A stretch of 64,000 nt of DNA from NCBI GenBank assembly GCA_026399835.1, contig JAPLQE010000056.1, positions 62,001 through 126,000 on the forward strand, given 5' to 3'. Numbering within the stretch: the stretch's first letter is position 1; every line of letters begins with the position of its first letter. The notes beneath the pieces are model-generated. The model was not told the DNA's origin and searched no databases. It saw only the letters and a program-made list of their open reading frames with translations. Below are positions 43,506-49,136 of the stretch, in pieces. The position numbers were made by a program, and so were the translations under genes. Source of the DNA: Burkholderiales bacterium. GTDB lineage: Bacteria; Pseudomonadota; Gammaproteobacteria; Burkholderiales; Burkholderiaceae_E.

Positions 43506-44822
43506 TCAGCCCCAGGGGAAGTCCGAGCGCGGCGGCAGCGCGAAACCCTCTGCCAGCGCCTCCCCGATGCGCAGCCCCTCGTTCCATTTGGCCATCCGCT
43601 CCGAGCGCGCGAACGACCCGACCTTGAGCTGGTGCACACCCCAGCCGACCGCGAGGTGCACGATGGTCGTGTCCTCGGTCTCGCCGGAGCGGGCCGACAC
43701 GATCGCATCCCAGCCGAGCGCCCGCGAGGCCTCGAGCGCGGCGCGCGACTCGCTCAGGGTGCCGGCCTGGTTCGGCTTGATCAGCGCGGCATTGCCGGCG
43801 CCGGCAGCGGCATGCGTGCGGATGCGCACCGCGTTCGTGACGACGGCGTCGTCGAGGACGACCTGCACGCGCGGGCCTGCGGCCGCCGTGAAGGCGGCGA
43901 GCCCGGCGAGATCGTCCTCGGCGAGCGGGTCCTCGATCGACACCACCGGATAGCGGCGCAGCCAGCCGAGCAGCAGCTCGGCGAGCTCCTCCGAGGCGAG
44001 TTCGCGCGGCCGCCCGTCGGCGCGCGCCATCCGGTAGCGCCCGCCGCGGCCGAAATTGCTCGCCGCGATGTCGAGCGAGATCGCCACGTCCTCGCCCGGT
44101 CGCAGGCCGGCGGCCTCGATCGCGCGGGTGAGCATCACGAGGGCCTGCTCGTTGTCGTCGAAGGCCGGCCAGAAGCCGCCCTCGTCGGCCACGCCCTGCA
44201 GCCGCCCCGCATCGGCGAGCAGTCGACCGGCCGCGCGGTAGACCTCGGCGGTCCAGTCGAGCGCGGTGCGCCAGTCCTCGGCGCCGACCGCCACGACCAT
44301 GAAGTCCTGAAGGTCGAGGCGGCCGCCGGCGTGCGCCCCGCCGCCGAAGACCTGGATCTCGGGCAGCGGCAGCATCGCGGGCGCGTCGCCCGCCAGCCAG
44401 GCCCAGAGCGGCTGCCCGGCGGCGGCGGCGGCGGCGTGCACGAGCGCCATCGAGGTCGCGACGAGCGCGTTGCCGCCCAGGCGCGAGCGGTCGTGCGTGC
44501 CGTCGAGCGCGACCAGCATCGCGTCGAGCGCGGCCTGCCCGGTGACGTCGCGGCCGATCAGTGCCGGAGCGATCTCGGCCTCGATGCCAGCGAGCGCCCG
44601 CCGCACGTCGAGTCCGCCGAACGCGACGCCGCCGTCGCGCAGGTCGACCGCCTCGCCGCTGCCGGTGGACGCGCCGGCCGGCGCGATCGCACGCCCGCGT
44701 ACGCCGGCGGCGGTCGCGACTTCGACCTCGACCGTCGGCCTGCCGCGCGAATCCCAGACGCGGCGGGCATGGACGGCGGCGATCCGGCGGGTGGGCGGAA
44801 CGGTCGGCAGGGCGTCGGTCAC
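43506..44822 (-). CDS. Enolase-like protein with altered active-site residues
   Basis: A 438-residue protein clearly of the enolase family: DSRGRPTVEVEV, PAGASTGSGEAVDLRDGG, VADEGGFWP (catalytic Glu208 in E. coli numbering), SLDIAAS, SIEDP, VVLDDAVVTN, ALIKPNQAGTLSES (Lys341) and HQLKVGSFARSERMAKWNE (Lys392). Two positions depart from enolases: QDFM replaces QEFM (Glu167 to Asp) and SARSGETED replaces SHRSGETED (His369 to Ala). The GTG at 44822 has GGAG nine bases upstream. It follows the kinase gene by 53 bases. It may be a second enolase working on another phospho-acid, or a slow enolase; the usual glycolytic eno-pyrG context is absent. Confidence 0.85.
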   Translation of the reverse strand: MTDALPTVPPTRRIAAVHARRVWDSRGRPTVEVEVATAAGVRGRAIAPAGASTGSGEAVDLRDGGVAFGGLDVRRALAGIEAEIAPALIGRDVTGQAALDAMLVALDGTHDRSRLGGNALVATSMALVHAAAAAAGQPLWAWLAGDAPAMLPLPEIQVFGGGAHAGGRLDLQDFMVVAVGAEDWRTALDWTAEVYRAAGRLLADAGRLQGVADEGGFWPAFDDNEQALVMLTRAIEAAGLRPGEDVAISLDIAASNFGRGGRYRMARADGRPRELASEELAELLLGWLRRYPVVSIEDPLAEDDLAGLAAFTAAAGPRVQVVLDDAVVTNAVRIRTHAAAGAGNAALIKPNQAGTLSESRAALEASRALGWDAIVSARSGETEDTTIVHLAVGWGVHQLKVGSFARSERMAKWNEGLRIGEALAEGFALPPRSDFPWG

Positions 44823-44875
44823 GGGCGGGGTCTCCTGGATGGGGTCGGGCAGTCGGGCGGGCGATCCGCCGCGGA

Positions 44876-47539: not shown

Positions 47540-47723
47540 AGGTCGCGAGCACGCTCCGGGGCTCGGCGCGGGCACGGCGATTGCCTGGTCAGGGATCGGA
47601 GGCCGCACCCGCCGGCTGCGGGGGCGCGAACGGCCGGCACCGCGCGCGGTGCTCGCATCGGTGGCGCTCGGCACCTCGGTGCGCCGATCACCGCGCCGCC
47701 GCCGCGGCCAAAGGACCCTGCCC

Positions 47724-49136
47724 GTGACGACTCAGCTGCCTTCGCTCGACGCGCCCGTCGGCGTGCGCATCGAACGCGACGCCCTCGGCGAGGTCGCCGT
47801 GCCCGCCGACCGGCCGTGGGGCGCGCAGACGCAGCGCGCGCTCGCGCATTTCGCGATCTCCACCGAGCGCTGGCCGCAGGAGTTCATCGCCGCGCTCGCA
47901 CGCGTCAAGCGGGCCGCCGCGCGCGCCCACCGCGCCGGTGGCACGCTGCCCGCGACGCTCGCCAGCGCGATCGAATCGGTCGCCGACGAGATCGCGCACG
48001 GTGCGCACCCGGACGCGTTTCCGCTGTCGGTCTGGCAGACCGGATCCGGCACCCAGACGAACATGAACATGAACGAGGTGCTCGCACGGCTCGCCGCGGA
48101 ACGGCTCGGCGCCGAGGCGCGCGTGCATCCGAACGACGACGTGAATCGCGGACAGTCGTCCAACGACGTGATCCCGACGGCGCTGCACGTCGCGCTCGCG
48201 GTCGCGATCTCGCGCGGCGTCGAACCCGCGCTGCACGCACTGGCGACAGCACTGCGAGCGCGCGAGCAGGCGTTCCGCACGGTGGTGAAGATCGGCCGCA
48301 CCCACCTGCAGGATGCGGTGCCGATGACGCTCGGCCAGGCGTTCGGCGGCTGGGCGAGCCAGGTCGAGCGCGCCCGACGGGCCCTGGTGCCGGCCCTGGC
48401 CGACCTGATGCCCCTGCCGATCGGCGGCACCGCGGTGGGCACCGGCCTGAACGCGCCACCGGGGTTCGGCGTGGCGGTCGCGCGCGAACTCGCCGACGAC
48501 TGCGGACTGCCCTTCGAGGCGGCCACCGACCGGTTCGCCCTGATCGGGGCACACGACCCGGTGGTGGCCGCGCACGGCGCGCTGGCGGCGGCCGCGGTCT
48601 CGCTGCTGCGGATCGCCAACGACGTGCGGCTGCTGGCCAGCGGCCCCGACGCCGGTCTCGGCGAGCTGCGCCTGCCAGCCAACGAGCCGGGCAGCTCGAT
48701 CATGCCCGGCAAGGTCAACCCCACCCAGGCCGAGGCGCTCGCGATGGCCTGCGTGCAGGTCATCGGCAACAACACCACCGTCGCGATGGCGGGCGCGGGC
48801 GGGATGCTCGAGCTCAACGTCTACAAGCCGCTGCTGGCGCATGCGGCACTGCAGAGCGCGCGCCTGGTCGCCGATGCGTCGCATTCGTTCACCGTGCACT
48901 GCGTCGCGGGCATAGAGGCGGACCTGCCGCGCATCGCCGCGCACGTGGCGCGCAGCCGGATGCTGGCGACCGCGCTCGCACCGCACATCGGCTACGACGC
49001 AACGGCGCGCATCGTGCATCGGGCGATCGCGGCGGGCGCGACGCTGCGCGAGGCGGCGCTGGCCGAGGGCGTGTCGGGCGCCGACTTCGACCGCTGGGTC
49101 GATCCGGCCGCGATGGCGGGCATCGGAGCGGGCTGA
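47724..49136 (+). CDS. fumC: Class II fumarase
   Basis: A 470-residue fumarate hydratase. TGSGTQTNMNMNEVLA near residue 100, HPNDDVNRGQSSNDVIPT near residue 130, KIGRTHLQDAVPMTLGQ near residue 187 (catalytic His), and the mobile-loop signature GSSIMPGKVNPTQAEA near residue 320 are all intact. It interconverts fumarate and malate. The start is GTG at 47724 with AAGGA eight bases upstream. A 184-base gap separates it from the PaaK-like gene. An N-terminal extension (TTQLPSLDAPVGV) of about 13 residues precedes the family start. Confidence 0.92.
   Translation: MTTQLPSLDAPVGVRIERDALGEVAVPADRPWGAQTQRALAHFAISTERWPQEFIAALARVKRAAARAHRAGGTLPATLASAIESVADEIAHGAHPDAFPLSVWQTGSGTQTNMNMNEVLARLAAERLGAEARVHPNDDVNRGQSSNDVIPTALHVALAVAISRGVEPALHALATALRAREQAFRTVVKIGRTHLQDAVPMTLGQAFGGWASQVERARRALVPALADLMPLPIGGTAVGTGLNAPPGFGVAVARELADDCGLPFEAATDRFALIGAHDPVVAAHGALAAAAVSLLRIANDVRLLASGPDAGLGELRLPANEPGSSIMPGKVNPTQAEALAMACVQVIGNNTTVAMAGAGGMLELNVYKPLLAHAALQSARLVADASHSFTVHCVAGIEADLPRIAAHVARSRMLATALAPHIGYDATARIVHRAIAAGATLREAALAEGVSGADFDRWVDPAAMAGIGAG

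Follow-up and report, generated by a model that had tools for sequence, protein, structure and literature searches.

Enolase is among the most conserved metabolic enzymes. In sugar-acid catabolism and in the serine cycle it acts together with a glycerate 2-kinase, and the shared logic of these routes is that a hydroxyacid is phosphorylated on O2 and then eliminated to phosphoenolpyruvate (PEP). According to the available excerpts of PMC2063504, there are three classes of glycerate kinase and very few organisms have two of them; the ordinary gud/gar route is described in excerpts of PMC11775122. Here we report on a stretch of 64,000 nucleotides from Burkholderiales bacterium (contig JAPLQE010000056.1, positions 62,001 to 126,000; hereafter the window), in which a gene for an APH-fold small-molecule kinase and an enolase-like gene form a pair. 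The original prediction had placed these two genes, with a PaaK-like adenylate-forming ligase and a class II fumarase, at one locus built around a divergent control region.

We found that the kinase and the enolase-like gene are a widely conserved two-gene module, undescribed in the full-text literature that we searched, and that, judging by the families involved, this module probably turns a hydroxy-acid into a central metabolite. For the gene pair, the literature search is in keeping with the statement, made with the original prediction, that no described system was known for this gene set. The isoflavone and tomatine cluster papers, matched against a few terms, mention neither enolase nor phosphotransferase. 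If our reading is true, a kinase-paired second enolase subfamily with a fixed catalytic-residue change would be a new enzyme function masked by current annotation, and knowing its substrate would fill a gap in several gene clusters for sugar-acid and aromatic compounds.

The kinase and enolase-like genes form a conserved unit

With the kinase as query we searched 200 genomes of the order, among them that of the window, and obtained matches in 37: the window's genome, 31 others at full strength and five that were weak. In addition, a profile scan of a species-level genome collection detected at least 546 encoded kinase relatives, of which the best 80 were kept. Going by their titles, these best 80 come mostly from Proteobacteria; several Acidobacteria, a Nitrospira bin and a Mycobacterium are also among them. 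Plasmids of Rhodococcus, a Bacteroidota and haloarchaea carry additional copies. After removal of six duplicate loci, 106 distinct kinase loci remained, window included, and because only the best 80 of the relatives had been kept, this set favors near relatives.

The enolase-like gene is present in 101 of these 106 loci. In 98 of the 101 the two genes lie on the same strand with midpoints less than 2 kb apart, and in eight of those 98 the enolase-like gene precedes the kinase. Three loci that do not show it (L103, L126, L144) are on contigs that stop no more than 122 bases from the kinase. Using starts from our own gene caller, we measured the junction in 96 loci: the genes overlap by 4 bases in 28 and have at most 60 bases between them in 60 (53 bases in the window). 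These overlaps and short gaps suggest translational coupling.

The same association was seen across whole genomes. All 31 full-strength carriers of the order have an enolase-family gene or a piece of one adjoining the kinase. When the 199 other genomes of the order were queried with the window enzyme and with a divergent enzyme from locus L040, full-length enolase-like copies were detected in 28 of 31 kinase carriers versus 1 of 168 non-carriers (Fisher P-value ~1e-29, not corrected for kinship). The three remaining carriers (G118, G126, G170) hold enolase-like pieces split by contig or frame breaks, and in the sole non-carrier with the gene (G100) it is cut by a contig end. Taken together, these results demonstrate that the kinase and the enolase-like gene are a conserved unit, with linkage far beyond chance.

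The kinase itself matched PF01636 (APH) only among Pfam families and lies outside the known glycerate kinase families PF02595 (class I), MOFRL (class II) and PF00485 (class III), as given in excerpts of PMC2063504. In NCBIfam it matched no resistance model, only those for methylthioribose kinase, a lanthionine synthetase kinase and thiamine kinase. The nearest solved structure, both by sequence and by predicted fold, is S-methyl-5-thioribose kinase (TIGR01767; PDB 2pun, 2pyw), from which the window kinase is nevertheless well separated: it scored 48 bits against that model's cut-off of 275, and its predicted structure (predicted local distance difference test, pLDDT, 93.5) aligned to methylthioribose kinases with a template modeling (TM) score of ~0.8 and 15-18% identity. 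In an alignment of 23 kinase sequences, the regions surrounding the catalytic HGD and DxE segments contain long motifs that never vary.

The enolase-like protein keeps the enolase fold and has a changed active site

The enolase-like protein passed the NCBIfam model TIGR01060 for phosphopyruvate hydratase (427 bits, cut-off 300), and its predicted structure (pLDDT 89) has a TM score of 0.92 to true enolases, including Mycobacterium tuberculosis enolase, to which it is 47% identical. Its best PDB sequence match is the Chloroflexus enolase (4z17, 4z1y), in which, according to the accessible part of PMC4450660, 2-phosphoglycerate is held by Glu165, Glu206, Lys338, Arg367 and Ser368. These residues align with Asp173, Glu214, Lys349, Arg378 and Ser379 of the window protein, and thus only Glu165 of the five contacts is altered; the adjoining His366 is also altered, to Ala377. 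In yeast enolase the two changed positions are Glu168 and His373. The window protein keeps Lys349 and Lys400, the magnesium ligands Asp251, Glu297 and Asp324, the Arg378/Ser379 pair, the acid Glu214, and Ser52.

We then counted residues, in yeast numbering, over 111 kinase-linked enolase-like rows (109 distinct genes, since L172 repeats L053 and L173 repeats L062) that span Proteobacteria, Acidobacteria, Rhodococcus, a Bacteroidota and two haloarchaea. The degenerate L179 row from an Enterobacter plasmid, the truncated or mis-extended L083, L087, L152 and L164, and the later additions L201, L206 and L207 stand outside this count. The position of Glu168 is Asp in all 111 rows, both haloarchaeal rows included, and that of His373 is Ala in 110 and Gly in one. 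Furthermore, every row has Gly or Ser in place of the Asn of the NGGxHA motif and Val or Ile in place of the Thr that follows Lys396. In contrast, Glu, His, Asn and Thr stand at these four columns in all 26 canonical rows. The canonical set was recognized by its His373, a choice that has no bearing on the other three columns. What the kinase-linked proteins share with enolase, apart from the whole fold, is invariant in 111 of 111 rows: Ser39, His159, Glu211, the three magnesium ligands, the catalytic Lys345 and Lys396, and Arg374 and Ser375 in the phosphate pocket.

Because these ten active-site positions are invariant, selection for catalysis is indicated. This makes it very improbable that the pair is co-inherited for some other reason, with no consecutive metabolites involved and with the enolase-like protein, for instance, as an enolase derivative that regulates the kinase or serves it structurally, even though enolases are known to moonlight. 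We take His373 to adjoin the phosphate-binding Arg/Ser and to hold a water near Glu168 and Glu211, and both changed positions, Glu168 and His373, presumably lie on the leaving-group side of the active site. A Catalytic Site Atlas list, as excerpted from PMC4922564, gives Glu168, Glu211, Lys345 and Lys396 as catalytic in enolase, and of these only Glu168 is not present in the kinase-linked rows.

A changed active site could also mean that the protein has ceased to eliminate and uses enolate chemistry alone, either to epimerize the phosphorylated acid or to act at a different bond in it. The altered Glu contacts the substrate, the proton-abstracting lysine and the metal site are preserved, both changed positions presumably face the leaving group, and other members of the enolase superfamily do epimerize, all of which would suit such an activity. 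We consider it improbable, however, given that the leaving-group acid Glu211, described in the accessible part of PMC4450660 as assisting hydroxide departure, is invariant in all 111 rows and that the change of Glu168 to Asp is conservative.

One result speaks against a neat subfamily of kinase-linked proteins. In a tree of 60 rows, which holds no canonical enolases of other phyla and in which the long rows L179 and L190 are unsure, the 15 canonical enolases of the order form one clade (100/100), and rows of the L040 type, the haloarchaeal ones included, group with this canonical clade (100/98) and not with the window type. The kinase-linked proteins are thus not one clade in this tree; on the unrooted tree a single origin of the residue change is possible.

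The TIGR01060 label covers altered proteins as well. Most of the annotated plasmid copies of the altered subfamily that we read, namely those in L174-L178, L180, L181, L189 and L206, are named phosphopyruvate hydratase, and that in L201 enolase; this is likely a systematic pitfall of annotation.

A different state of the pair is seen in L179, from an Enterobacter chuandaensis plasmid (6193-10000), where a distant kinase relative adjoins a "hypothetical" gene that is placed like a degenerate enolase-like protein. This protein has Lys at the Glu211 position and a changed catalytic loop, and the locus also encodes an aminotransferase, an oxidoreductase and an iron-containing redox enzyme. Here the pair is possibly put to biosynthetic use.

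Carrier genomes hold a second enolase and a standard glycerate kinase

Another enolase was detected in 30 of 32 carrier genomes, the window's own included, although in G153 and G170 as fragments only; the two carriers in which none was found are G175 (89% complete) and G144 (84% complete). The enolase-like protein is separate from the housekeeping enolase, and the notion that it replaces the latter was rejected on the same count.

Glycerate kinases were looked for in the order's 199 other genomes. Class II is encoded by 30 of 31 kinase carriers versus 77 of the 168 non-carriers, and none of the 31 encodes class I. The carriers thus already own a D-glycerate 2-kinase, and replacement of that enzyme by the APH-fold kinase is unlikely. 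Across the same 199 genomes, classes I and II are near-exclusive: both occur together in two genomes, among 50 with class I and 107 with class II.

Gene neighbors and the candidate reaction

To place the pair in context, we examined its neighbors, with family scans covering 101 of 120 immediate neighbors and chosen sets of 10, 10, 10, 10, 10, 8 and 10 proteins, with repeats. A D-2-hydroxyacid dehydrogenase is encoded in 33 of the 106 loci by clustering (35 of 106 by tblastn). Its gene immediately adjoins the kinase or the enolase-like gene in 29 of 106, is one gene off in L058, and mostly follows the enolase-like gene or diverges from the kinase. By identity there are at least two kinds of this enzyme, one 48-61% identical to the L136 protein and the other 65-70% identical to the Rhizobium protein. 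Four other loci, from Burkholderiales, have a ketopantoate-reductase-like gene immediately upstream. As 2-oxoacid reductases have been recruited repeatedly, a 2-hydroxyacid is indicated as the kinase substrate.

On Rhizobium plasmids the genes for PEP carboxylase, the reductase and the kinase are consecutive, and the enolase-like gene belongs to an adjoining cluster, 4.3 to 4.6 kb off. The presence of PEP carboxylase, found in 5 of 125 loci, suggests that the product is PEP in at least the Rhizobium-type group. A nearby 2-hydroxyacid dehydrogenase, and in Rhizobium a nearby PEP carboxylase, are features that these loci share with the glycerate 2-kinase and enolase systems. Elsewhere the neighbors differ. 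In Rhodococcus and Sphingobium the pair has an HpaD-like extradiol dioxygenase (below its model's cut-off), a zinc alcohol dehydrogenase, a cupin and FAH-family proteins nearby. Of 125 loci, 9 have a dioxygenase of this kind, 10 such an alcohol dehydrogenase and 10 such a cupin. In Roseibium and Paracoccus it is accompanied by LacI regulators, sugar and tricarboxylate transporters, an FAH-family protein and short-chain dehydrogenases/reductases; in haloarchaea by mandelate-racemase-type proteins and, in Halomarina, also by RraA-like and DHDPS-like ones. A few loci encode galactarate-dehydratase-like and RraA-like proteins, and L039 has a formate-tetrahydrofolate ligase/methylenetetrahydrofolate reductase cluster. 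The enzyme pair therefore seems to serve several catabolic routes.

Our preferred reading, to which we give about an even chance, is that the kinase and the enolase-like protein catalyze consecutive steps of a small catabolic "reduce, phosphorylate O2, eliminate" module. We infer the reactions, their order (from family chemistry) and the nature of the substrate as follows. A 2-oxoacid would be reduced to a 2-hydroxyacid, a step for which about a third of loci encode a reductase beside the pair, and the APH-fold kinase would phosphorylate its 2-hydroxyl. In the enolase-like enzyme the conserved lysine would then take the C2 proton and the group on C3 would be expelled, giving PEP or a close homologue. 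Because the leaving-group residues are fixedly changed and a standard D-glycerate 2-kinase and enolase are resident, the substrate is most likely not D-glycerate, nor that of the enolase-like step 2-phospho-D-glycerate; candidates are L-glycerate, a longer 2,3-dihydroxyacid, or a lactate with another leaving group on C3.

A broader proposal, which we hold only tentatively, is that the pair represents a widespread route into central metabolism, in which an enolase paralogue with a re-tooled leaving-group pocket works only with its dedicated APH-fold 2-hydroxyacid kinase. It would eliminate a group other than the hydroxyl of 2-phospho-D-glycerate (in the other enantiomer, on a longer chain, or a different leaving group) and would yield PEP or a homologue in the sugar-acid and aromatic catabolism of bacteria and haloarchaea.

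Several of the same neighbors are also consistent with plain isozymes. In that case the kinase would represent a fourth class of D-glycerate 2-kinase, with an APH fold, the enolase-like protein would be an enolase dedicated to the route, and the two would together convert D-glycerate (from hydroxypyruvate, tartronate semialdehyde or sugar-acid cleavage) to PEP. Reductases of the glyoxylate/hydroxypyruvate-reductase superfamily adjoin the pair, galactarate-dehydratase-like and RraA-like genes accompany it in a few loci, and the L039 cluster and the Rhizobium PEP carboxylase are reminiscent of the serine cycle at its glycerate end. Moreover, the protein preserves the enolase fold and most of the catalytic residues. 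We nonetheless regard this alternative as rather unlikely, given the change of the Glu168 and His373 positions in 111 of 111 rows, the second enolase of 30 of 32 carriers and the class II glycerate kinase already present in 30 of 31; classes I and II, for comparison, are near-exclusive.

A number of observations weigh against the module that we prefer. The window locus has no adjoining reductase, and in 67 of 106 loci neither reductase kind was detected in the stretch examined (tblastn, E 1e-15). Two loci lack the enolase-like gene as far as their sequence shows, which continues for 6.7 kb (L079) and 1.6 kb (L105) after the kinase. The two genes are 3.7 to 7.9 kb apart in L091, L116 and L137, and on the two annotated Rhizobium plasmids they are parted by the 4.3 to 4.6 kb mentioned above. 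Position 40 in the catalytic loop varies among the 111 rows (T 63, R 37, K 6, M 4, A 1), and there is possibly, for this reason, more than one substrate. Plain glycerate would be just as consistent with the sugar-acid contexts (galactarate-dehydratase-like, RraA-like, FAH-like). Finally, duplicate isozymes are common in catabolic operons, and the resident standard enzymes are therefore compatible with D-glycerate.

Two neighborhoods deserve mention in their own right. L174, L182-L184, L187, L189, L137, L201 and L206 contain a conserved cluster of the HpaD-like dioxygenase, zinc alcohol dehydrogenase, cupin, 2-hydroxyacid dehydrogenase, kinase and enolase-like genes. Its hosts are Alpha- and Betaproteobacteria and Rhodococcus, PEP carboxylase is encoded in five of its plasmid loci, and it is perhaps an aromatic catabolic pathway. 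The second involves a protein of ~260 aa encoded upstream of the kinase (L046:7453-8256, L050:8815-9600, L058:8708-9493, L059:7523-8293) in loci with sugar-type ATP-binding cassette (ABC) transporters. The L050 copy had no sequence match in Pfam, NCBIfam or PDB, and its N-terminus appears membrane-like.

The ligase and fumarase genes lie outside the conserved unit

The original prediction raised the idea that phosphorylation, dehydration, acid activation and possibly a fumarase step are encoded together as one pathway. In the window the four genes do stand side by side. At the remaining 105 loci, however, the ligase is represented by one weak match (37% identity, 7.4 kb away in L076) and the fumarase by L065 only, and with the window counted each is thus found in 2 of 106. 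The window's PaaK-like and fumarase proteins had no match at the 31 loci of the order (tblastn, E 1e-5, 6.3 to 19.9 kb per locus). Among the order's 199 other genomes, five have PaaK relatives of at least 41% identity, never near the kinase locus; in kinase carriers they are on other contigs or more than 500 kb off.

The comparison with L065, an uncultured Burkholderiales contig and the nearest relative (kinase 83% identical to the window's), was informative. It aligns to window positions 35000-42628, 43506-45921, 47759-49106 and 49483-51031 at 83-84%, and to 51237-52628 at 72%. The block with the PAP2 phosphatase (42629-43505) is absent from L065, the PaaK-like block (45922-47758) is replaced by ~0.9 kb of other sequence without a ligase match, and 0.4 kb at 49107-49482 is unaligned. 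Since L065 otherwise keeps the kinase, the enolase-like gene and the fumarase, the PaaK-like gene is a lineage-specific gain or loss. The genome of the window encodes no second fumarase close to this one (other matches are 29-35% identical), and the window fumarase is therefore probably the housekeeping enzyme; it scored 587 bits, below the TIGR00979 cut-off of 665.

These findings show that the PaaK-like ligase and the fumarase are unrelated neighbors. When neighborhood co-occurrence, the check proposed with the prediction, was run on the kinase loci, the four genes were not seen together across lineages, whereas the pair alone recurred. The four-gene pathway was rejected on this basis, its probability being close to nil. 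Thus the kinase and enolase-like part of the grouping stands (101 of 106 loci), and the ligase and fumarase part falls. Of the predicted chemistry, phosphorylation of a hydroxy acid followed by loss of water, or of another group, fits the pair; the ligase and fumarase steps do not belong to it.

As an observation on the window, the pair is flanked on both sides, by the PAP2 phosphatase (42625-43347) and by the PaaK-like ligase (45922-47758), with blocks that are missing from the largely colinear L065.

Features of the window

All four reading frames were confirmed at the predicted positions, with the families as named (Table 1). The predicted interval of 120 bases between the divergent starts is also exact, counted from the kinase ATG (45898) to the ligase ATG (46019).

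Table 1. Genes of the window locus, with coordinates in window positions.
Gene	Position	Strand	Details
Enolase-like	43506-44822	-	438 aa, GTG start; Enolase_N PF03952 and Enolase_C PF00113
APH-fold small-molecule kinase	44876-45898	-	340 aa; PF01636 APH; upstream of the enolase-like gene
PaaK-like adenylate-forming enzyme	46019-47539	+	AMP-binding, 30.2 bits (cut-off 29.9)
Class II fumarase-like	47649-49136	+	Lyase_1 and FumaraseC_C; true start may be nearer 47724

No structured RNA scored above the Rfam gathering scores in 43300-47800, and the inverted repeats in the divergent control region are short and GC-rich, with none convincing. Farther along the window, at 49495-50926, are genes for an ABC transporter ATPase and a permease. 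No substrate-binding protein was noticed directly beside them, with no search aimed at one having been made, and the permease resembles the tungstate permease TupB, with a score below that model's cut-off.

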